In this document: positions 1 to 8,831 of the stretch, piece after piece
Layout of the letters: each line of letters opens with the position of its first letter
How positions within the stretch are numbered: the stretch's first letter is position 1
Source of the DNA: Synechococcus sp. UW69
GTDB lineage: Bacteria; Cyanobacteriota; Cyanobacteriia; PCC-6307; Cyanobiaceae
NCBI RefSeq assembly: GCF_900474185.1
Contig: NZ_UCNW01000002.1
Coordinates: 1-64,000, forward strand
Direction of reading: 5' to 3'
Length of the DNA: 64,000 nucleotides
Notes under the pieces: model-generated
The model's database searches: none
What the model was told of the DNA's origin: nothing
Seen by the model: the letters and a program-made list of their open reading frames with translations, nothing else
Position numbers and translations under genes: made by a program

Positions 1-54
1 GGCCAGAAGGCCAAGGGCAGCAGGAGCCACCAGCAGTTGCTGGAAAAGCTTCAT
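1..54 (-). CDS. Outer-membrane porin, N-terminal fragment (partial)
   Basis: Only the first 18 codons lie in the window; the gene continues off the left edge. The readable N-terminus starts MKLFQQLLVAPAALGLLA, a signal peptide of the type found on marine Synechococcus porins (SLH-domain/OprB-like, som family). These form outer-membrane channels for small solutes. The ATG at 54 follows an AGGA Shine-Dalgarno element. The family call rests on the signal peptide only; the SLH and barrel parts are not visible. Confidence 0.6.
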   Translation of the reverse strand, partial: MKLFQQLLVAPAALGLLA

Positions 55-58
55 TGAA

Positions 59-68
59 TTCCTCACAC
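59..68 (-). promoter_or_regulatory. Porin leader: Shine-Dalgarno and predicted Yfr1 sRNA pairing site
   Basis: On the minus strand the porin leader reads GTGTGAGGAA just before the start codon. Nine bases are the exact complement of UCCUCACAC, part of the conserved unpaired core of the cyanobacterial sRNA Yfr1. Porin mRNAs are reported Yfr1 targets in Prochlorococcus. The site covers the ribosome binding site. A 6-1-6 inverted repeat (GCCCAA/TTGGGC) lies just upstream at 75-87. Pairing is inferred; Yfr1 itself is not in this window. Confidence 0.5.
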
Positions 69-412
69 AGGAAAGCCCAAATTGGGCACGCCTATACTGC
101 CGTTGCGCTGTATTTGCTGCTACTCGTATAGAGCACTTCCAAGTAGCTTTTTATACGTCTGCCTGTTCACTTTTGTTGTCAGCCTCATCGCAGTCCCTTT
201 GGAGATGTCTGTGGTCTGTTTGGGGCTTCGCTGTGTCTCTTAGGCATCAATAAGAAGACTGACGGCCTTGTGTCATTTGTTACTCTCTTCCGTGTTTTGG
301 GCCTGTTGGAGCGATTAGAGTTAAAAAGTTGATTCCCATTGGATCTTGGCCAATTCATCCGACGACAATTTACGGCAGTCCAAAAAAAAGGGCTGTAAAA
401 AGTCAAAGTGTT
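69..412. other. AT-rich intergenic stretch, no supported gene
   Basis: This is the region between the porin start and the CRP-like gene. It should hold the porin promoter. Base composition is clearly more AT-rich than the rest of the window. A 73-codon minus-strand frame inside it has no coding-like composition and was not called. Confidence 0.5.
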
Positions 413-1027
413 CTAAATGGAAGGGTGGAACATGTCGGTGTGGCCATTGATTTGATTTGCCGGCAATATCAGTTGATTCTTTAGTTCGTCAATATAAATT
501 TTATTAGATTTCCTGAGAGAGCTTATGCTTCTGGAAACAGTAGATCTTGTAGTTCCAATGATTTCAGCGATGCGTCCATGAGAGAGAGTGTGCTCTAGCA
601 AATAACCATCGGTCGTACGTATCCCAAGTCTGGTGGTTAATAGTTGAAATAATTTCATGAGACGACTTTCTATGTTTGTTTCGAGTCTGACAATGTGCAG
701 TTGTAACACCCATTCCATGATGCCGTCATTGAATCTTTGTTCTGGATGATGGCAATAGCTTGCTTGGCATTTTGTTTCTGTTATCGCCTCTATCCTGATC
801 GATAACTCTTCAGGATACTTGAATCTGCATGGTTCAGATTTGCATGCAAAAGCTAAAGTCAAATCAATTATCTTGCCTTCTTGGTAGGCGCCAATTCTTA
901 CGATTCCATCTTCTACTGTTATTTCTACGTCTTCTCTGCCTTTAGGTCTATCGAGAAGCACTGTTTCCGAAGCATTCAGGCATATTGGCCTGTGCTGCCT
1001 GGGATTATTTCCACCCTTCGTATTCAT
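413..1027 (-). CDS. CRP/FNR-like transcriptional regulator, divergent
   Basis: This 204-residue protein has a C-terminal winged helix-turn-helix of CRP/FNR type at residues 148-173 (LSHGRIAEIIGTTRSTVSRS). The long helix before it (about 105-135) fits the dimerisation helix. The N-terminal half is short for a cyclic-nucleotide-binding beta-roll and shows no clear cAMP-binding signature, so the sensed signal is unknown. It is likely a DNA-binding regulator, possibly of the neighbouring porin, which is transcribed in the same direction downstream. The gene is AT-rich compared with most of the window, which suggests a variable or transferred region. Family call is confident, function is not. Confidence 0.75.
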   Translation of the reverse strand: MNTKGGNNPRQHRPICLNASETVLLDRPKGREDVEITVEDGIVRIGAYQEGKIIDLTLAFACKSEPCRFKYPEELSIRIEAITETKCQASYCHHPEQRFNDGIMEWVLQLHIVRLETNIESRLMKLFQLLTTRLGIRTTDGYLLEHTLSHGRIAEIIGTTRSTVSRSISSLRKSNKIYIDELKNQLILPANQINGHTDMFHPSI

Positions 1028-1240
1028 TGATGTGCTGACGTGTGCTTTTTGATGCTTTCTGCTGTAGTCGCGTTGCCACCTATTTATTTGCTGTTCTGTA
1101 TAAACAAGTCATCGCGGTTTTGTATTAGATGGATTTTATAGCACGTTGTGGATTGTTGGCTTTGTTCGTTGTTGTGATATTTGCCCTTTTTGAAGTTCGA
1201 TATGACACATTGCGTCGTCGCGATAAGGATGCTCTGTCTG

Positions 1241-1432
1241 TTAACGCTTCAGCCACAGCATTTTTTCCGGCCTGATCACCTCAAGGGCTTCCATGTGCTC
1301 GTTGGTTAGCGCCTGGGCAGCCTGATGTTGGCCTGCAAGGGAAAGCTGCGACGCTCGTCCAAAGCACCAGTCTTTGATGTCATTGAGCGTCTTAGCTCGA
1401 TGGCGATGTTTGTTGATATTTTCTGATTGCAT
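1241..1432 (-). CDS. Hypothetical small protein (63 aa)
   Basis: Starts at an ATG and encodes a charged, soluble, mostly helical protein with no signal peptide or membrane segment. It lies in the AT-rich stretch between the CRP-like regulator and the metallothionein promoter, on the opposite strand to the metallothionein. No family recognised. Composition is protein-like, but support is only moderate. Confidence 0.45.
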   Translation of the reverse strand: MQSENINKHRHRAKTLNDIKDWCFGRASQLSLAGQHQAAQALTNEHMEALEVIRPEKMLWLKR

Positions 1433-1762
1433 TTTTCACTTGAGGATCTTTTTATTGTCTCGTATTGTATTTCAATTTTTCTTTTTTGTGTACGTTTGAG
1501 CGTAGTCAATTGTTGTTCCTCATGTAGCTATTGCTTTCCTGCTCTTTTGGGGCTGCCTTTTGAAACTTTTTATCTATAACCATCTCTCTTGTCCTTCTTT
1601 GGTTTTGTTGACGCCTCCTGTCTGTCAGTGCTCTGTAGCCCTTGGTCGCGTTTTTGCTGATAATCATTCTCGCTACTTTTTTCGCTCTTTGTGTTGGTTT
1701 GTTCTTCTATTTGCTTCTCATGTTTCAAGCCTCTATAAATATCCCCAGATGATCCGTCAGTT
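1433..1762. other. Intergenic region upstream of the metallothionein
   Basis: About 330 bases with no convincing gene. It contains the Zur-type box at 1658-1672 and must hold the metallothionein promoter. Overlapping open frames on both strands (1560-1832) look like chance frames in T-rich sequence. Confidence 0.6.
1658..1672 (+). promoter_or_regulatory. Zur/Fur-type operator upstream of the metallothionein gene
   Basis: Reads TGATAATCATTCTCG, a close match to the cyanobacterial Zur box (TGATAAN-ATTATCA type) with arms TAAT/ATTC around a central C. It lies about 90 bases before the metallothionein start. In Synechococcus WH8102, Zur is reported to activate bmtA, so an upstream activator position is plausible. 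A related box sits at 5119-5131. Confidence 0.6.
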
Positions 1763-1936
1763 ATGCCTTCAGCCCTACTTCTTTGTGCTTGTGAGCGTTG
1801 CACCTGCGAGGTTCAGGAGACTAAAGCTGTGATGCTGCATGGCCTGAGCTTCTGTTCAGAGGCCTGTGCCAGCGGCCACCCCAATAACGAGCCATGCCAT
1901 GGCAGCGGTTCCTGTGGATGCACCTGTGCGGAGTGA
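1763..1936 (+). CDS. bmtA: Bacterial metallothionein (SmtA/BmtA)
   Basis: This 57-residue protein binds and buffers zinc (and cadmium or copper) in the cytoplasm through a four-metal cysteine/histidine cluster. Ten cysteines are visible at 8, 10, 13, 15, 31, 35, 45, 51, 53 and 55. The CxCxxCxC start, the FCSEAC centre and the CGCTCAE end match the SmtA family, as does the length. It has its own Zur-type box upstream. It converges with the small membrane-protein gene at 1953-2237, which ends the second zinc-linked operon. I found it by direct translation; it is under 60 codons. Confidence 0.93.
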   Translation: MPSALLLCACERCTCEVQETKAVMLHGLSFCSEACASGHPNNEPCHGSGSCGCTCAE

Positions 1937-1952
1937 GCGAGTTGGGTTGAGC

Positions 1953-2237
1953 TCAACCCCCTTTCGATCGGGCTGGCCTCAGCAGCATCGTCAGCCCTGA
2001 CACGGTGACAACAATGGTCAGCCCTCCCAGCAGGATTGGATAAATCGGTTGGAGGTTCAGCCAGCCGAATTGTCCCGTGTGCAGCTTGAGCAGCCAGAAG
2101 GCATCGATGTTCCGCTCAAGGAGCAAGCTGTAGAGGGAGCCAGTGCCTGCTGTAATCAGCAGTGGTGCTGCGGCGATTGGCACCAGCCAGCGGTGGATGC
2201 GTCGTGCCTGACGGCTCGTTGTTCTCGATTTTTTCAT
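1953..2237 (-). CDS. Small PepSY-associated TM-type membrane protein
   Basis: The 94-residue protein begins with a basic stretch (RQARRIHRWLVP) leading into a membrane helix with a TGSLYS motif, then a second helix near residues 65-85. This pattern resembles a single PepSY-associated TM repeat. Its ATG overlaps the stop of the DUF3721 gene by four bases (ATGA), so the two are translationally coupled. It is the last gene of the minus-strand unit that starts near the Zur-type box at 5119. Role unknown; possibly membrane redox or metal handling. Confidence 0.7.
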   Translation of the reverse strand: MKKSRTTSRQARRIHRWLVPIAAAPLLITAGTGSLYSLLLERNIDAFWLLKLHTGQFGWLNLQPIYPILLGGLTIVVTVSGLTMLLRPARSKGG

Positions 2238-2455
2238 TGCTTGCGCAGCTGTTGATGGAGTTTCCGTTCATCAGCGCAAGGCATCCAGCGTCCGTTGTTC
2301 TCGTGAACGCTGGTGCAACCGATTTCGGTAGCTCGCTGCTGAGCTTCCGCCTCGGTGGCGTAGAGCCCTTTGCTGTGAGCCAATCCTGGCGTTTGGTTTA
2401 CCAAGAGGGTCACCACACCGACGGCAAGAGCCGTTAAAGGTTGGATGGCGGTCAT
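2234..2455 (-). CDS. DUF3721-like secreted small protein
   Basis: The 73-residue protein has an N-terminal signal peptide (about 1-26) and a short domain with the motif LYATEAEAQQRATEIGC followed by WMPC. This is the DUF3721 pattern, common in marine Synechococcus. The two cysteines probably form a disulfide outside the cytoplasm. It lies four bases after the next upstream gene and overlaps the following one by four bases, so it belongs to the same operon. Molecular function is not known. Confidence 0.75.
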   Translation of the reverse strand: MTAIQPLTALAVGVVTLLVNQTPGLAHSKGLYATEAEAQQRATEIGCTSVHENNGRWMPCADERKLHQQLRKQ

Positions 2456-2459
2456 TGGT

Positions 2460-2717
2460 TCAGAAGCCTTCGCAGTGTTCGATGGCTTTCAAGTAATTCA
2501 TCTTGCCCGGGTGTGTGTTTCCGTCGGTGTTGATCGCGACCCGCATGGCGATCTGGGCATCGACGCAGCGGTTGTAGCGATCGGTTTTGACGGCTTGCGG
2601 AATCAACAGAACAGCAATGCTGAGCAGGCTGAGGCTGCTGACTGCAGCCAGCACCGGGTAAGCGTGGGCCCTCACCATTTCACGCACCGTGAGCTGTTGT
2701 TGGTTGTGATCGTTCAT
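2460..2717 (-). CDS. Hypothetical single-pass membrane protein (85 aa)
   Basis: A soluble N-terminus is followed by one membrane helix near residues 20-42 and an RCVD-containing tail with two cysteines. The plan resembles the 77-residue protein at 22524-22757 (helix, then a CVxA motif and a terminal cysteine), suggesting a shared small-protein family. It sits in the minus-strand run below the metallophosphoesterases, four bases before the DUF3721 gene. Function unknown. Confidence 0.65.
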   Translation of the reverse strand: MNDHNQQQLTVREMVRAHAYPVLAAVSSLSLLSIAVLLIPQAVKTDRYNRCVDAQIAMRVAINTDGNTHPGKMNYLKAIEHCEGF

Positions 2718-2785
2718 GTACTGATGGCGATTGCCCCAGCGTATGAACGCCCTTTCGGTTTGTTTGGCCTGAATGAACGAGGCAG

Positions 2786-3496
2786 TCAGCCAAAGCCCCG
2801 CCCCGAGGCGTGGACGGGTTCTCCCGCAATCCGAAACTCGATGTGATCAGTTGCGGGGTCGTACAGGGTGTAGTTCCTCCCTCCGCCAATACCGATCACG
2901 CTGCGCTTGGGTACGGCCTGTTCGCTCTGCTCTTCTCCGGAATGGTCCTTGACATGCGATTGGATCGATCCACCGGAGAGTTCAAGCCGGAACTGACGCT
3001 GGCAGCGTGCTGTGAAGAGGCGATTGACATCCAGTCGCGTCAGGCGATCCAACAACACCAGGGCAGAAGTGTCTTCTGTCAGCCGGTCACCAACATCAGC
3101 TGAACTGCCATGGATAAGGGCGCAGTCGAGTTCGATGAAACCGAACTGCAGCGATGCCAGCCAGTTGAGATGGTCTGCATCCACGGCAGCAAGAAGTGCG
3201 TTGACGCCAGCCTCGCCGTGCTCTTGTCTGAGAGCTTCAGCCTTGCGTTCCCCGCGGTAGCCAGACTCAGCAAGCAGCTGCTCTTCCCACCAGCCGTAGA
3301 TGCACTCGGGCTGAAGATCAGCGCGATGCGGCTGTCTCAGACGCTCGAGCAGTGCATTGCACTTGCGTTGTGATCCGATCAAATCACCGAGAACGAAGAG
3401 ATTGGCAACACCCCGCTGTTGCTTCAACTCCTTCTGGATCTGCTCGTACAGATCCAGGTCTCCTTGGAGACCACTCACCAGGGCCCAGCGTTCCAT
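2786..3496 (-). CDS. Metallophosphoesterase-like protein, diverged
   Basis: The 236-residue protein aligns in layout with the upstream metallophosphoesterase (start ALVSGLQGDLDLYEQI, then VLGDLIG and an LIHGS motif), so the calcineurin-like fold is retained. The first metal motif is altered: the usual DxH is replaced by SGLQGDL. That suggests reduced or changed catalysis. Its start overlaps the previous stop by one base (TGATG), so translation is coupled to the canonical enzyme. Both lie in the Zur-box operon. Substrate unknown. Confidence 0.7.
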   Translation of the reverse strand: MERWALVSGLQGDLDLYEQIQKELKQQRGVANLFVLGDLIGSQRKCNALLERLRQPHRADLQPECIYGWWEEQLLAESGYRGERKAEALRQEHGEAGVNALLAAVDADHLNWLASLQFGFIELDCALIHGSSADVGDRLTEDTSALVLLDRLTRLDVNRLFTARCQRQFRLELSGGSIQSHVKDHSGEEQSEQAVPKRSVIGIGGGRNYTLYDPATDHIEFRIAGEPVHASGRGFG

Positions 3497-4311
3497 CAGC
3501 GCTCACACACGTGGCTGGCGTCTTCAGCCCGCTCGGCGTATTCGAATCCGTGGCTGAGCCTCCAGGCAAACACCTCCGGTAAGCCCGCATCAACGATGGC
3601 CTGACAGGTTTTGGCGACGTCGTAGTCGACCTCTCGAATGGTGACGTCTCCTGTGTTGTCGTCATGGATCACATAGGTCGCCTTCGTGCTCCCATGACGT
3701 GGTTCCCCCACGGAACCAGCGTTGACGATCCGCCGCATTGGCAGTTCCAGCTCATCTTCTGTTGGTGTGCCTTGATCGCGTTGTTGCACCTTCACCCGAA
3801 TGGTCCCCTGCCGTAGTTCGCGCACATAGGGCTGGTGGGTGTGGCCGCAGAACAAGGTTTCCGCTCCTGCTGTTTCCACCCGCTCAAGGGCTGCAAATGC
3901 GTTCATGTCAGGCAACAGATACTCGTGCTGACTGTTTGGACTGCCATGCACAAACAGCAGCTTCTCTCTGCGGAATGTCATGGGCAGTTCGGCCAGAAAT
4001 GCTTTGTTCGCCTCCGTGAGCGTTGCGGCTGTCCAGTGGTGGGCACGATGGCCTCGACGTTCCGCCAGCTGGGAGGGATAGCTGCATTCACAGGCATTCA
4101 AGCCATCAATGATGTCCTCATCCCAGCACCCCTGGCACGTGTCAATTTGGCGCTGCCGCACCAACTCCACCACCTCATTGGGCTGAGGTCCGTAACCAAC
4201 AAGGTCGCCCAGACAGGTGATGGTTTTGATCCCGTGGGAGTCAATGTCGTCGAGGACGGCCTCAACGGCTGCCAGGTTGGCGTGCAAACAGGAGATGACG
4301 GCATGCTTCAT
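3496..4311 (-). CDS. Metallophosphoesterase (YfcE/calcineurin-like family)
   Basis: The 271-residue enzyme has the expected motifs in order: SCLHANL near residue 8, CLGDLVGYGP near 34, LFVHGSP near 120 and FCGHTHQPY near 154. These residues normally bind two metal ions and hydrolyse phosphoesters in the cytoplasm. The first motif has CLH in place of DxH, as in some family members. It lies five bases after the CobW-like gene and is coupled to the next phosphoesterase gene. The Zur-type box points to control by zinc or iron. Substrate is not predictable. Confidence 0.85.
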   Translation of the reverse strand: MKHAVISCLHANLAAVEAVLDDIDSHGIKTITCLGDLVGYGPQPNEVVELVRQRQIDTCQGCWDEDIIDGLNACECSYPSQLAERRGHRAHHWTAATLTEANKAFLAELPMTFRREKLLFVHGSPNSQHEYLLPDMNAFAALERVETAGAETLFCGHTHQPYVRELRQGTIRVKVQQRDQGTPTEDELELPMRRIVNAGSVGEPRHGSTKATYVIHDDNTGDVTIREVDYDVAKTCQAIVDAGLPEVFAWRLSHGFEYAERAEDASHVCER

Positions 4312-4316
4312 TTCAG

Positions 4317-5099
4317 TCAGCTTTCCAATGAGGGTTGTTGTTGTTGCTGGAGCTGTTGTTGTTGCGCGATGAGCACGTCATCTGCGAGCAGACAATCGTT
4401 GATGGTTGCTTGCATTCCTTCAGGATTGAGTGCCTTGCCTTGAACGACCAGTTCTGAAGTTCGACTGGGGCGCCCTGTGGGGGGAGCCGTGGTATCCAAG
4501 GGCAGAAACTGTGATCCCTGTTGGCTCACCATCCAATTGCAGAAAAATGAACGCCCGTCGGGGAGATTCATCAATCCTTTGGCGCGGTACACATCGCCGT
4601 AGGCACCATTGACGAGTTCAAACCAGAAGCTGCTGAGGCTGTCTGGGTCCCATACACAACCTGAAAGGGATGTATGCCAAGCCTCAAGCTTGCTGAACTC
4701 CAAGGTGTCATTCGAAGGCAACTCTGGGTCTCGCCCAAAGTGCATGACTTGGTCAGGTCGCAGCTGCAATGCGTCCAGCTTTGAGCGGACGTTGATTCCA
4801 AAGCCATCGATGCCCTCCTGGGTGGGAGTACGAAACCTCTGAACTTCGATCAACGTGAGCGCATCGTCCTCCTGCTTCAGCTCTGCTGCATTGGATGGAG
4901 TCGCCTCCTCAAGCCTGGGGATCTGGTCCTTGAGCCAGTTCAGGTCGATACCGCTGTCGGCTCCCTGCTCAAGCCCCGCTTCTGGTTCTTCCTCCAGGCG
5001 CAGGTAGGCGCAGGGGCCGCCGTGATCTTGAAGCGTTTTGAGTGCCCAGGATGTTTTTCCGCACCCCGGAGGACCTGAAATCAGGCACACCTGACCCAT
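4317..5099 (-). CDS. CobW-like (COG0523) P-loop protein, reduced form
   Basis: This 260-residue protein has a Walker A motif at residues 7-15 (SGPPGCGKT) and a C-terminal region typical of CobW_C (SFWFELVNGAYGDVYRAKG). CobW/COG0523 proteins are GTP-dependent metal chaperones, often zinc-regulated. This copy shows no CxCC metal motif and no NKxD guanine motif, and ends in a glutamine-rich tail, so it is reduced. I chose the ATG at 5099 over a GTG at 5111 because GGAGG sits six bases before it. It heads the minus-strand operon, 20 bases from the Zur-type box. Confidence 0.7.
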   Translation of the reverse strand: MGQVCLISGPPGCGKTSWALKTLQDHGGPCAYLRLEEEPEAGLEQGADSGIDLNWLKDQIPRLEEATPSNAAELKQEDDALTLIEVQRFRTPTQEGIDGFGINVRSKLDALQLRPDQVMHFGRDPELPSNDTLEFSKLEAWHTSLSGCVWDPDSLSSFWFELVNGAYGDVYRAKGLMNLPDGRSFFCNWMVSQQGSQFLPLDTTAPPTGRPSRTSELVVQGKALNPEGMQATINDCLLADDVLIAQQQQLQQQQQPSLES

Positions 5100-5118
5100 C
5101 GCAGCCTCCACAAAGCTC

Positions 5119-5131
5119 GAGAATCATTCTC
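5119..5131 (-). promoter_or_regulatory. Zur/Fur-type operator of the CobW-metallophosphoesterase operon
   Basis: GAGAATCATTCTC is a perfect 6-1-6 palindrome, continued by ATTATG, which resembles cyanobacterial Zur and Fur boxes. It lies 20 bases from the CobW start codon, a position suited to repression. It shares the core AATCATTCTC with the box before the metallothionein gene. Zur is favoured over Fur because of that partner gene. Confidence 0.6.
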
Positions 5132-5250
5132 ATTATGGTCGCTCGTCGCTGTCCTGTCGCGCTTCGTCTCCATTGCATTGAGGTTGGTATCGCTTGTTAT
5201 GGGCTGTGCTTGCATCTCTCGCTAGGGTCACCAGAACTCGGTTTTGACCT

Positions 5251-5520
5251 ATGCAGGCCTTGGAGTTCCTCGCCCTCGCGCTGGTGAACTTGGCTCTGAT
5301 GGTTTATCTGTTTGAAAAAGGCTTCAAATTCTGGAAGGAGAACCGTCGTCTCGATCGCCTGGTTAATCAGCATCCCGAAATGAAGGGGGTGCATCCTGAC
5401 GAGGATGGCCTTTTTGTTTTTGAAAGTGATGACTCCTTAAAGGTTTTGGTTCTGGAGAACGATGAGCCCGGTGTGGATGAGCCCTTCTATGTGAGAGAAG
5501 AAGATCTTGAAGAGGAGTGA
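5251..5520 (+). CDS. Hypothetical membrane-anchored acidic protein (89 aa)
   Basis: One N-terminal membrane helix (about 4-22) is followed by a basic patch and an acidic tail ending DLEEE. Orientation is probably helix in the membrane and tail in the cytoplasm. It is divergent from the CobW operon and is followed 35 bases later by another small gene. Coding composition is good; no family recognised. Confidence 0.7.
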   Translation: MQALEFLALALVNLALMVYLFEKGFKFWKENRRLDRLVNQHPEMKGVHPDEDGLFVFESDDSLKVLVLENDEPGVDEPFYVREEDLEEE

Positions 5521-5555
5521 ATGCAAAGCCTGACCTGAAGTTCTGGGGGTAATTC

Positions 5556-5732
5556 GTGCAGGAATGGAATGATGAATTTGTTACCCAGGCTCAACATGAG
5601 CTCACCTCTATGGTGACTGACTGGAAATACGATTACGGCGTCAGTGATCGTGATTGTTCGGCCATGTTGCTCTGGATGCTGATCAAGCTCAATCCCGATT
5701 GCAATCTCGATGCCGGTGTTCTGGATCCCTGA
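5556..5732 (+). CDS. Hypothetical small protein (58 aa, GTG start)
   Basis: A GTG start preceded by a G-rich Shine-Dalgarno stretch (GGGGGT) opens a frame rich in aspartate and tryptophan (MQEWNDEF... ending LDAGVLDP). It is soluble and probably helical. It lies just after the 89-residue gene and may share its transcript. No family recognised. Confidence 0.6.
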   Translation: MQEWNDEFVTQAQHELTSMVTDWKYDYGVSDRDCSAMLLWMLIKLNPDCNLDAGVLDP

Positions 5733-5845
5733 GCAGGCGTTGTGTCTTGGGTCGCCAGTGGGGGCGGTGTCGATGGATGGGGGTGATGCGTTTGTCTGCC
5801 CCTAGGTGAAAGCACCGATGTTTATTGGTTCTTGGCGATACACAA

Positions 5846-5923
5846 TGAAAGGGTGACCCCCAGCTCAGAACAGGGGGAATCTGCGTCGAACAAGGGGAGG
5901 GACTAGGGAACCCTCCCTTTTTT
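5846..5923 (+). ncRNA. Candidate small RNA with two hairpins
   Basis: No reading frame explains this plus-strand stretch. It has a CCCCC/GGGGG hairpin (5857-5877), a linker of about 17 bases, and a GGGAGGG/CCCTCCC stem at 5895-5917 followed by six T residues. That ending is a typical intrinsic terminator. A weak promoter-like ATACACAAT precedes the start. The layout matches free-standing cyanobacterial sRNAs, but I could not assign it to a known Yfr family. The 5' end is estimated. Confidence 0.4.
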
Positions 5924-5975
5924 GTGGCTGGACTGCAGTTCAGCTCACCTAGGCCTTTCTCTGGGGTCTAATCAC

Positions 5976-6000
5976 AAAAAAGCCCGCCAAAGCAGCGGGC
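5976..6000 (-). terminator. Intrinsic terminator, minus strand
   Basis: On the minus strand the stem GCCCGC/GCGGGC is followed by a T run. It could end transcription from the small minus-strand gene at 6125-6316. Confidence 0.6.
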
Positions 6001-6124
6001 CAGGTGATGGGGGATCCCAACATAACGACCACTGCCAATGGATGCAGTGTTTCTTTCTTATTCATGCTGCGGATCCGGTTGCAACTTATGGCCCTGCTGT
6101 GAGCGGTATCGCTTTGCGCAAGAT

Positions 6125-6316
6125 CTAGTTCAGTCGCCTGCGTGAGCCGCTGTTACGCCCAACTGCCGGAACGTTTCGGCTCAGATATAGGGCATTGCTG
6201 AGTCCCATCACGACGGTGCATCCTGCCGGGCCGCACACTCGGTAGAAGTGATGTCCAATGGATTCGACTGTTCCGTTGCCTTGAACGGAGTACGGCAGAT
6301 GCAGAGGCTCGGCCAT
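6125..6316 (-). CDS. Hypothetical small protein (63 aa)
   Basis: The ATG-started frame has protein-like content, including YRVCGPAGCTVVMGLS with two cysteines, and a basic C-terminus. There is no obvious Shine-Dalgarno. A terminator lies downstream at 5976-6000. No family recognised; modest confidence. Confidence 0.4.
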   Translation of the reverse strand: MAEPLHLPYSVQGNGTVESIGHHFYRVCGPAGCTVVMGLSNALYLSRNVPAVGRNSGSRRRLN

Positions 6317-6446
6317 AGGACGACGCTTGAGGCAAAACCGTCCTACGGATCCTGGATTGGACTTGACTGAGACATCTGATACGGATTTGCTTTTCTTTGC
6401 CTCCCTCAGTGTTTCTTAGGGATCCAGGCCTGTGCCTTCGTCGGCC

Positions 6447-6623
6447 TCAGGTTCCTGGGAAGTGACTGGCCTTGAGTCGAACAAGGTGATCCCGCACTTC
6501 CAGGTCTGGCATTCGCATCACGCGTTGCATCAGGTCTTGCCGATGGGCGTAAAGCCCCCTGCAACCCTTGATGGGTTCGGTGAGCAGCTCCAGCAGTTGT
6601 GCTTTGGCCGTTGTGCTTGTCAT
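6447..6623 (-). CDS. Hypothetical small helical protein (58 aa)
   Basis: Begins MTSTTAKAQLLELLTEP at an internal ATG of a longer frame whose upstream part is not coding-like. It is leucine- and arginine-rich, soluble and probably helical. It is divergent from the secreted-protein gene at 6797. No family recognised. Confidence 0.45.
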   Translation of the reverse strand: MTSTTAKAQLLELLTEPIKGCRGLYAHRQDLMQRVMRMPDLEVRDHLVRLKASHFPGT

Positions 6624-6796
6624 GGTCTTTTGCTGCGCCTGGTCTCGTCTTGTCCCCCAAAGCATCGCGAACATGTGATCGCAACACATCACCCATTCGA
6701 GTGGTTGTCTGCACTGATCCCAGGCGACGTCTCCCCCATTCGAGGGGTGGCTGCCAGGGTCAGCTTCTTTATCGTGACGTGTCTTTCGAGGTTCGG

Positions 6797-7210
6797 ATGA
6801 GGGTTCTGCAATCCGTTCTGGCGTTGCTGTTGGTGCTGGGTTGCGCAACAGCTTCACCGGTGTTTGCTGCCATGAGCGAGGAGTCGGCGAGTAGTGATTT
6901 GATTGCGACGCTCGAACAAGCGCGGGATGTGCGGGAGCAGGCGGATCTAAAAATCCGGGAAAATCTCAAATTGATGGCGTCCAGTTGCCTCTATATGAGT
7001 GATTCGTTGAAGGAGTTGATGGCTTTGGAGAATCAGTTTGAAGACCGCCAGATCGCAGATTTCACTGTGGGCATGGCCGATGCGGTCGAGTTGGAATTGC
7101 TCGATGAGGAATCCCGGAAGATCAAAGCGCTGTACCGGCGATCCCACTGTGACGACCCGATCATCCTGCGGGAACAGTTGCGGCAGGCGGATCAAAAGCG
7201 GAAGGCCTGA
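6797..7210 (+). CDS. Hypothetical secreted helical protein (137 aa)
   Basis: A signal peptide at residues 1-25 ends in SPVFAA. The mature part is charged and helical with two cysteines (near 64 and 118) that may pair outside the cytoplasm. The ATG at 6797 was chosen because it starts the signal peptide; the frame is open further upstream but that part is not coding-like. Two strong hairpins follow the gene. Function unknown. Confidence 0.75.
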   Translation: MRVLQSVLALLLVLGCATASPVFAAMSEESASSDLIATLEQARDVREQADLKIRENLKLMASSCLYMSDSLKELMALENQFEDRQIADFTVGMADAVELELLDEESRKIKALYRRSHCDDPIILREQLRQADQKRKA

Positions 7211-7231
7211 CTCAAGCAAGCTTCGCAACAG

Positions 7232-7271
7232 CAGACCCCCGACCCCTTTGACGGAGGGGGCCGAGGGTCTG
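7232..7271 (+). terminator. Strong hairpin after the secreted-protein gene
   Basis: CAGACCC and CCCC on the left pair with GGGG and GGGTCTG on the right around a short loop. There is no T run, so it may terminate weakly or protect the mRNA 3' end. Confidence 0.45.
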
Positions 7272-7301
7272 GTTCTGAACGGTGTCGTTCAGGTTTGAAG
7301 T

Positions 7302-7330
7302 GGCCGTCCCGTTCCGATGAACGGGCGGCC
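7302..7330. repeat. Inverted repeat hairpin
   Basis: GGCCG-CCCGTT pairs with AACGGG-GGCC across a six-base loop. It stands 30 bases after the previous hairpin and has no T run on either side. Role unknown. Confidence 0.5.
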
Positions 7331-7758
7331 TAGATCGCTCGCTTGTGCATGACGCACTCCATCAGGTTTTCGGCTGAAGGAAGGTCGAAGCGTCTGGCTC
7401 GTGGCGCCTGGGGCCATGTTCCAAGGGGTCGGGTGAAGGGTGCTCCTTAGGGCACCTGACACGGTGCAGATGGAGTGCCGATCGGCCTGGCCTTTCGCAC
7501 AAGGCCTGCCGAAGGGCGCACCCGACAAGAGGTGTGAAAACTGTTGGAGCAGGGGCCTGAAAGTCAGTTTGCTTCTGACGTCTGCTCGGTTGGACCGTCG
7601 TCACGCATGGACGCCTCCGATCTCGATGGACACATTCTTGGGGGTGGGTCGAGTCCCGGCAATCAGCACGAACACGCATTGCCTTTCAGGGCTGAATCGG
7701 CCGAAAGTGGGAATGCCGTGGCTGTGATCTGATTAGCCTGAACCGCCGACCGCGGTTG

Positions 7759-7923
7759 ATGACCATTCCCTTCGGCACGCCTGAGCCTTCGGAGGGTCTG
7801 CTGAACAAGTCGGTCTCATCCACACGACTGCGTGCCTGGTTGAACACACGTCTTCGCCAGCTCGCCATGGGGCAACGGATCCAGGATGCGCGGGCGTTGC
7901 GTAGCGAATTCCTCGTGGAGTGA
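7759..7923 (+). CDS. Hypothetical basic small protein (54 aa)
   Basis: The frame starts MTIPFGTPEPSEGLL and ends FLVE, with an arginine-rich helix in the middle. It is soluble with no cysteines. A short inverted repeat (AACCGC/GCGGTT, 7741-7757) sits directly before the start codon. Convergent with the acetyltransferase gene. No family recognised. Confidence 0.55.
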   Translation: MTIPFGTPEPSEGLLNKSVSSTRLRAWLNTRLRQLAMGQRIQDARALRSEFLVE

Positions 7924-7952
7924 TCAGTGCCGCTCAGGTCTGTTCAGGGAGA

Positions 7953-8831
7953 TCAACCCAGCTCGAGGCAGGCCAGGCCATAAACGTTGCGATCGTGACC
8001 TTTCGGCATCACGCCTTTGTACATGCGCACCGTTGATCCCATGGGCTTGAAACCCTTCGCCGTTGTAAGGGTTTTGGCGGAGTGGTTGTGTCCGGGGGTG
8101 TCGATCAGAACGACTCCCTTATGGCGGTCCATGGCGTTGTTCAGTAACAGCGATGCCATCCCAGCGTCTTCTGCAAGCCATGGCCCCACCCGCCAACCGT
8201 CGCCAATCGGGAGGAGGCAGGGTCGAATGCGCACATAGCCATGGCATTCACCCTTGCTATCCATGGCCACGAACACCTCCCCAGCCTTGTGGCGAAGCCA
8301 CAGTTCAAGGAAATGGGGGCGTGGGCTGATTTCGTGTCGTTCGTCGTAACGCTGGACGGCCTCGAGTGAGATGTCGCGCAATGACACGACGTTGATGTCG
8401 CTGCGATGGAGAAGGGTTGTGTTCGGGTTGTTCGATTGATCGCTCAGGCACAACATCTGCCGGCGAGTGGTGACGCAGTCCTTCTGAAAACCGGCTTTTT
8501 CATAGAAGCCAACCATCTGCACCGCTGCTTCCAGACCGATGCACTCCACGCTGTTCAGGGTCTGCAGGGCATGTCGCCAGAGGCGATGGCCAATGCCCTG
8601 GCCGCGATGGTCCTGCTTCACAACAAACAGGCCGATGAAGGCGTAGCCGGGGTTGTAGGTCACCGCGGCGATGCATCCCAACGGCTGGTTGTTTTGCCAA
8701 GCCAACCAGATCCCCTGGCCATCGGTGTTGGCATAGATCTCGATATCGCCCACACCAGGAGCGAAACCCTGCTCACGGGCCAGACCTGTCACAAAGTCAA
8801 GGTCGGATGACGTGAATGGTTTGATCTCCAA
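7953..8831 (-). CDS. GNAT-family N-acetyltransferase with second acetyltransferase-like domain
   Basis: The 292-residue protein has an N-terminal GNAT domain with the acetyl-CoA pyrophosphate loop HRGQGIGHRLW near residues 75-85 and VGFYEKAGF near 107. A C-terminal domain of Acetyltransf_18 type follows (about 145-290). It should transfer an acetyl group from acetyl-CoA to an amine in the cytoplasm; the substrate is not predictable. The start is TTG. A decayed relative of its C-terminal half lies at 57795-58235. A small unrelated gene lies upstream. Confidence 0.85.
   Translation of the reverse strand: MEIKPFTSSDLDFVTGLAREQGFAPGVGDIEIYANTDGQGIWLAWQNNQPLGCIAAVTYNPGYAFIGLFVVKQDHRGQGIGHRLWRHALQTLNSVECIGLEAAVQMVGFYEKAGFQKDCVTTRRQMLCLSDQSNNPNTTLLHRSDINVVSLRDISLEAVQRYDERHEISPRPHFLELWLRHKAGEVFVAMDSKGECHGYVRIRPCLLPIGDGWRVGPWLAEDAGMASLLLNNAMDRHKGVVLIDTPGHNHSAKTLTTAKGFKPMGSTVRMYKGVMPKGHDRNVYGLACLELG

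Follow-up and report, generated by a model that had tools for sequence, protein, structure and literature searches.

Zur-type boxes before a metallothionein gene and a CobW-like operon in Synechococcus sp. UW69 point to two opposite zinc programmes

The window analysed here spans positions 1 to 64,000 of contig C2 (NZ_UCNW01000002.1) of Synechococcus sp. UW69, whose genome comprises 2.37 Mb in 15 contigs. Near its start, the metallothionein gene bmtA on the plus strand converges with a minus-strand run of genes that begins with a short CobW-like gene (mini-CobW), continues with two metallophosphoesterase-like genes (MPE1 and MPE2) and then with three small open reading frames (ORFs). Both bmtA and the CobW-like operon are preceded by a box of the type bound by the zinc sensor Zur. 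The features are as follows (aa, amino acids).

1658–1672, plus strand: Zur-type 7-1-7 box of bmtA, TGATAATCATTCTCG, 90 bp gap to the ATG; putative activator site
1734–1739, plus strand: predicted -10 element of bmtA, TATAAA, 61 bp 3' of the box; no good -35
1763–1936, plus strand: bmtA, prokaryotic metallothionein, 57 aa, which passes the Pfam test for a bacterial metallothionein (PF02069, 47 bits against a cut-off of 33)
2786–3496, minus strand: MPE2, degenerate metallophosphoesterase-like, 236 aa; hhalign to MPE1 with 98% probability; DxH lost
3496–4311, minus strand: MPE1, metallophosphoesterase-like, 271 aa; PF12850 at 86.6 bits; 3rqz, E value 2e-31
4317–5099, minus strand: mini-CobW, the CobW-like gene, 260 aa, with P-loop and CobW_C (PF07683, 29.1 bits against a cut-off of 22)
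5118–5132, minus strand: Zur-type box of the CobW-like operon, TGAGAATGATTCTCG (CGAGAATCATTCTCA in forward-strand letters), 18 bp gap to the ATG; putative repressor site
5132–5137, minus strand: -10 element of mini-CobW, CATAAT, its last base common with the box
5155–5160, minus strand: -35 element of mini-CobW, GCGACA, 17 bp from the -10

A first-pass annotation had read from the letters two boxes with a common core, about 90 and 20 bases before the start codons of two converging units. Both boxes are indeed there, the gaps measure 90 and 18 bp (ATGs at 1763 and 5099), and the units, on opposite strands, do converge. The CobW–metallophosphoesterase operon that it described also exists; it contains two metallophosphoesterase-like genes, however, and its 'CobW' is a short divergent relative rather than a canonical COG0523 protein.

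To call the boxes Zur-type, an earlier 13-mer did not suffice: with three mismatches allowed it was not significant in the window (16 matches against 11.9 expected). Because it did not rise above chance there, it was replaced by a matrix from other genomes, trained on 24 distinct znuA boxes of the genus with the UW69 genome and both window sites left out; these training boxes had been chosen using the consensus TGAKAATNATTMTCA, itself partly written from the window sites. With this matrix the bmtA box scores 22.0 bits and the CobW-like box 19.1 bits, ranks 1 and 2 in the 64 kb, and the third site reaches 8.6 bits. A first-order Markov background of 3 Mb has a maximum of 14.8 bits, and nothing in it equals the two window boxes, so both rank above background as Zur-type sites. 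The idealised palindrome gives 2 matches in the window against 0.8 expected, which is weakly significant. The threshold of 13.5 bits used below was fixed after the scores had been seen.

Across the 2.37-Mb genome, sites within one mismatch of TGAKAATNATTMTCA lie at the znuA/znuC divergent promoter (no mismatch) and, with one mismatch each, at bmtA, the CobW-like gene and a ferritin promoter. Strain WH8102 has two Zur boxes at bmtA (PMC9337993); a search of the window for a second one in UW69 found none (next best -6.5 bits). The stretches around the three PF02492 matches of this genome, among which mini-CobW does not appear, hold no site either (best -1.4 bits). In an Rfam scan of positions 1–8000 no family reaches its cut-off, and terminator-like matches, 7 against 4.1 expected from shuffles, are near chance and were not used.

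The two boxes differ in their position relative to the promoter. When CobW-like promoters are aligned on the box, a -35 like GGACA is followed by a spacer of mostly 17–18 bp and then by CATAAT or CAGAAT, the last base of which is the first base of the box. The count covers 16 loci of the genus and 10 named loci, all hand-chosen and Synechococcus-type with Prochlorococcus left out, which give 25 distinct sequences; in 20 of these, compared with 0.3% of control positions, both hexamers match at 4/6 or better and end on the box. A separate promoter scanner returned the mini-CobW -35/-10 pair as the sole promoter-like match in 1500–5400; shuffles give 1.3, so one match is the chance expectation. 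Zur bound at the mini-CobW box would cover the -10 and the start point, which suggests a repressor position. For bmtA, the best predicted -10 (TATAAA) is accompanied by a weak -35, with variation among species; on this prediction the box would lie near -81, about 80 bp above the start, which would be an activator position.

The boxes are widely kept in the genus. At znuA a box with at most two mismatches is found in 28/28 genus loci, and in UW69 it stands 12 bp before the ATG. The mini-CobW gene is present in 19 of the 34 genus genomes, and 13 of the 19 high-quality genus genomes have both mini-CobW and MPE1. All 17 genus loci put through the matrix scan have a box of at least 14.5 bits before the CobW-like gene; L126 was excluded for its shortness and L128 because it is a fragment containing Ns. 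Among bmtA orthologues of at least 49% identity, a box of at least 13.5 bits and its upstream position are kept in 19 of the 23 scanned (L140 reaches 13.5 by rounding; L150 was left out as too short). No such site occurs in the five distant metallothionein paralogues scanned; L154 was too short, and 13 further distant matches came without loci.

Named picocyanobacterial records contribute 80 mini-CobW loci with 79 distinct upstreams, the closest being Synechococcus at 82% identity. Among the 79 distinct upstreams, 71 carry a site of at least 13.5 bits no more than 300 bp ahead of the operon, compared with 0.8% of random 300-bp pieces from the same loci. MPE1 adjoins mini-CobW in 80/80, and a match to MPE2 follows in 75. 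The first-pass annotation had seen in the two units a single zinc module. Each unit does have its own box elsewhere, but only 8 of the 34 searched genomes of the genus have bmtA near the operon and convergent with it (G000, G002, G008, G015, G022, G023, G024 and G028; L030 and the G015 locus are apparently one and the same contig), so that the pairing is a local arrangement. In G023 (L164) the trio of mini-CobW, MPE1 and MPE2 is split, with about 7.4 kb between MPE1 and MPE2.

In 14/14 Cyanobium-type loci, grouped by the names of their records (Cyanobium, Vulcanococcus and the like), mini-CobW overlaps a preceding canonical COG0523 gene (CICC, NKXD, ETTG) by 4 bp. No box lies directly before mini-CobW itself in these loci; the best site lies instead before the overlapping COG0523 gene in the 13 that keep the upstream, L053 being cut by a contig end at the start of that gene. 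This site is 3–49 bp before the chosen COG0523 ATG (13–15 bp in 9 loci) and scores 11.0–20.9 bits, with 12/13 at 13.5 or above. Several of these loci also have weak to moderate znu gene matches and further strong sites, none more than about 6 kb away from the trio. Across a sample of the phylum, the mini-CobW profile matches 93 of 386 genomes, 67 of them outside the family, and 20 of these 67 loci, from other cyanobacterial families, were examined, taking the two best sites of each. All 20 have MPE1 adjacent to mini-CobW, 19 also contain MPE2, and a site of at least 13.5 bits is found in 18 of the 20 stretches. On plasmid A of Trichormus variabilis, a 21.6-bit site stands directly 5' of mini-CobW, and the island that holds the trio also contains zinc ABC transporter genes, hemB, thrS, hisI and a COG0523-type gene, its GTP-binding product typed by CICC and NKTD motifs. 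Many cyanobacteria thus have the operon preceded by Zur-type boxes, and COG0523, znu, hemB or folE genes are often close by.

Expression data bearing on this operon come from PCC 7002, in which the pAQ7 genes hemB-II, folE-II, G0131 (GTPase-like) and G0132 are raised in the zur mutant and the same pAQ7 genes are raised by the chelator TPEN (PMC4628125). The pAQ7 gene beside the FAD protein corresponds to the first 147 residues of the PCC 7117 mini-CobW (99% identity) and has a 22.1-bit site before it. On pAQ7 (L295:23717-25488) MPE1 is missing, another ORF comes next and then the C-terminal part of MPE2 (96%), i.e. the trio is naturally broken. By gene order, the mini-CobW remnant would be G0131 and the MPE2 piece the 'phosphoesterase' G0129, the old tags not being in the record. 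Because the remnant matches the de-repressed G0131 in this order, the mini-CobW promoter is probably Zur-repressed in PCC 7002.

The sensor itself is encoded in UW69. Three Fur-family proteins are present in the genome, and the one at C9:176577-176945 is the Zur orthologue: its best PDB match is the SynZur chain 7ne9 (E value 9e-66), with 76% identity over query residues 3–125, against 29% and 27% for the other two proteins. In WH8102, Zur represses znuA and activates bmtA, which is lower in the zur mutant; both genes respond to Zur and zinc, and the reported regulon consists of the znu cluster, bmtA and the neighbour of bmtA (PMC9337993). WH8102 appears to be without the CobW-like operon, as judged from its two nearest searched relatives by Zur. 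These are the one-contig genomes G025 and G021, with Zur 98% and 92% identical to SynZur, in which mini-CobW and MPE1 were not found; G020, at 90%, has both.

We consider it very probable that Zur drives two opposite zinc programmes from these boxes and that the operon is a zinc-scarcity operon. The idea of one sensor with opposite responses, put forward in the first-pass annotation, fits the promoter anatomy and the reported data on SynZur in WH8102 (PMC9337993) and on PCC 7002 (PMC4628125); for UW69, we infer Zur control of bmtA and of the operon, as well as the biochemical role of the trio. With enough zinc, Zn-Zur would occupy the CobW-like box, whose centre lies near the operon's start point, and by covering the -10 would keep the operon off. 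At bmtA, bound some 80 bp above the start point, it would leave the polymerase unblocked and would turn on the metallothionein, which would store surplus zinc. Once zinc is gone, Zur would be off both sites; storage would stop and the operon would be expressed. Mini-CobW, MPE1 and MPE2 would then most likely handle or deliver zinc alongside COG0523 chaperones.

Several observations weigh against this interpretation. In the comparative data, bmtA has no consistent -35 across species, and 4 of the 23 orthologues (L139, L145, L146 and L151) lack a 13.5-bit site. Eight of the 79 named upstreams stay under 13.5 bits (one is a contig-cut locus), the distant loci L281 and L285 have no site, and in just 10 distant loci does a site fall no further than 150 bp from the mini-CobW match. 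The operon is missing from G025 and G021 though present in G020. Many Prochlorococcus loci are near-duplicates, and the relatives are not independent samples. The ferritin promoter, at 20.4 bits, outscores the CobW-like site, so the motif and its matrix do not separate Zur from Fur sites. In PCC 7002, TPEN induced iron-starvation genes as well, smtA was higher in the zur mutant, opposite to the marine activation of bmtA, and G0129 and G0130 of the same pAQ7 cluster stayed flat (PMC4628125), although a lack of response downstream is consistent with the operon being broken there.

There are three other explanations. One is that Zur represses the operon and that bmtA is not Zur-activated here, its box being inactive or repressive. 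This would agree with the rise of smtA in the PCC 7002 zur mutant, and the bmtA promoter of UW69 is weak and has a single box. However, PCC 7002 smtA answers to a separate repressor, SmtB (PMC4628125), bmtA goes down in the WH8102 zur mutant (PMC9337993), and the box is kept at its upstream position in most of the bmtA orthologues scanned (19/23), which makes this explanation unlikely in our view.

We judge it rather improbable, too, that the iron sensor Fur, alone or together with Zur, binds the boxes, with the operon and bmtA also iron-responsive. The ferritin gene that has the same-type site lies beside a solute-binding protein gene that reads as iron-type, 19 of the 23 ferritin loci scanned reach 13.5 bits, and this explanation could draw on the three Fur-family proteins and on the iron-starvation response to TPEN. 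Yet the genome sites at zero or one mismatch include znuA/znuC, bmtA and the CobW-like operon, and in WH8102 znuA and bmtA vary with Zur and zinc (PMC9337993). In the excerpts on PCC 7002, G0131 is named for the zur mutant and not for the fur strain (PMC4628125). Moreover, the 12 closest ferritin loci have a constant C or G where the zinc sites have T.

The ferritin box itself (L170:1501-1515; C14:7107-7121) is of the 7-1-7 type, with TGATAATGACTCTCA or a GAGTC form in the 12 closest loci, and in relatives it lies about 5.5–6 kb from bmtA. Its distance from the likely ATG is about 80 bp, much as at bmtA, so the storage genes for iron and for zinc may have an activator layout in common.

A role of the 5118–5132 box for the divergent 89-aa gene at 5251–5520, instead of the CobW-like operon, is highly improbable and was rejected: the box does sit in the 151-bp intergenic stretch common to that gene and mini-CobW, but the gene occurs in only 3 of the 80 named mini-CobW loci, boxes stay with the operon, and the promoter beside the box points to mini-CobW.

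Mini-CobW has the Walker A P-loop G[PS]PGCGKT in 18/18 alignment rows, whereas CXCC and an intact NKXD occur in 0/18; in the canonical COG0523 family, CXCC is reported to be invariably present (PMC2770081). The CobW_C cut-off is passed by four of six mini-CobW relatives. In the predicted structure (pLDDT 81, pTM 0.74), the first three Foldseek matches are YjiA, with E values of 5e-7 to 2e-6 and a whole-chain TM of 0.3. VIA likewise aligns it to YjiA, at Z 9.3–9.5 and mainly over the C-terminal domain, and finds nothing besides YjiA above Z 8.

MPE1 keeps the calcineurin-like fold by profile, together with the GDxxG, VHG and GHTH motifs. It fails the DxH and GNH[DE] motif tests of active calcineurin-like metallophosphoesterases: aligned to 3rqz, Cys8 replaces the Asp of DxH, and Cys62-Trp63 replace the Asn-His of GNHD. 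The resulting CxH and GCWD, with two metal ligands turned into Cys, are found in 8/8 alignment rows and in 20/20 distant loci, and three non-cyanobacterial homologues retain Asp and Asn (SDxH, GNYD). MPE2 on its own has no Pfam match, its relation to MPE1 coming from hhalign. A tentative and, on balance, doubtful proposal is a split zinc chaperone, in which mini-CobW, as the GTPase-like subunit, would have lost CXCC, zinc binding would have moved to the cysteines of MPE1 and MPE2 would be a non-catalytic scaffold, the whole being made only at zinc scarcity via Zur, widely in cyanobacteria.

The non-cyanobacterial homologues of MPE1 (L296, L297 and L298) share Cys74 and Cys76 and keep the Asp of DxH. 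One has an arsenite methyltransferase gene and an ACR3 transporter gene on either side, and another adjoins a gene for an ArsR/SmtB-type regulator; these neighbours hint at a metal- or metalloid-linked subfamily.

Further genes lie near the two units. Between bmtA and MPE2, three small ORFs occupy 1953–2717 on the minus strand (94 aa; 73 aa, DUF3721; 85 aa). Their order is retained in close relatives, and wherever the two units are linked they separate bmtA from MPE2. In G002 and G024, however, some 1.5 kb divides them from MPE2, which makes them look like a unit of their own, not shown to be part of the zinc system. On the other side of bmtA, beyond a 735-bp stretch of 43% GC upstream of it, lies the gene of a CRP-type regulator (413–1027, minus strand) with only the helix–turn–helix recognisable. 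It adjoins bmtA in relatives too, with 54–64% identity, below that of its neighbours.

The bmtA half of this system is known. What is new is a Zur-linked trio built on COG0523 and metallophosphoesterase folds that fail the defining motifs of both. In the open-licence literature no paper was found on the CobW–metallophosphoesterase–Zur trio, and an earlier prediction of the CobW-like site is possible. As WH8102 appears to be without the operon, a scarcity unit could have been missed when the Zur regulon was defined. Marine picocyanobacteria grow at very low zinc (PMC9337993). If the trio is a zinc-delivery complex, it would give a testable answer to what some of the COG0523-type response accomplishes in cyanobacteria. 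The two promoters, taken as a pair, also lend themselves to a simple natural comparison of one metalloregulator repressing from one position and activating from another.

Four known systems are comparable. The SynZur regulon of WH8102 shares with UW69 the Zur orthologue, the box type, the boxes at znuA/znuC and bmtA, and the combination of repressed uptake with activated storage; as reported, it differs in having no CobW-like operon and two boxes at bmtA, against one in UW69 (PMC9337993). The hemB-II/folE-II zinc cluster of pAQ7 (PMC4628125) likewise has mini-CobW and MPE2, as remnants, with a Zur-type box before mini-CobW, whereas its trio is broken and lacks MPE1 and that of UW69 is intact and near bmtA. 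Zur sites preceding COG0523 genes have been reported in Prochlorococcus marinus (PMC2770081). Zur-regulated COG0523 genes of the yciC type have in common with mini-CobW the P-loop and CobW_C, YjiA as the best solved fold and the Zur-type box, and in Cyanobium-type relatives mini-CobW even overlaps a canonical COG0523 gene. In contrast, mini-CobW is only 260 aa long and without CXCC or NKXD. ZagA and ZigA are further Zur-regulated COG0523 types. Finally, MPE1 shares its fold by profile, and the GDxxG, VHG and GHTH motifs, with calcineurin-like metallophosphoesterases (3rqz and the plasmid homologues in Adhaeribacter, Hymenobacter and Rubrobacter), from which the cyanobacterial proteins differ in having CxH for DxH and GCWD for GNxD.

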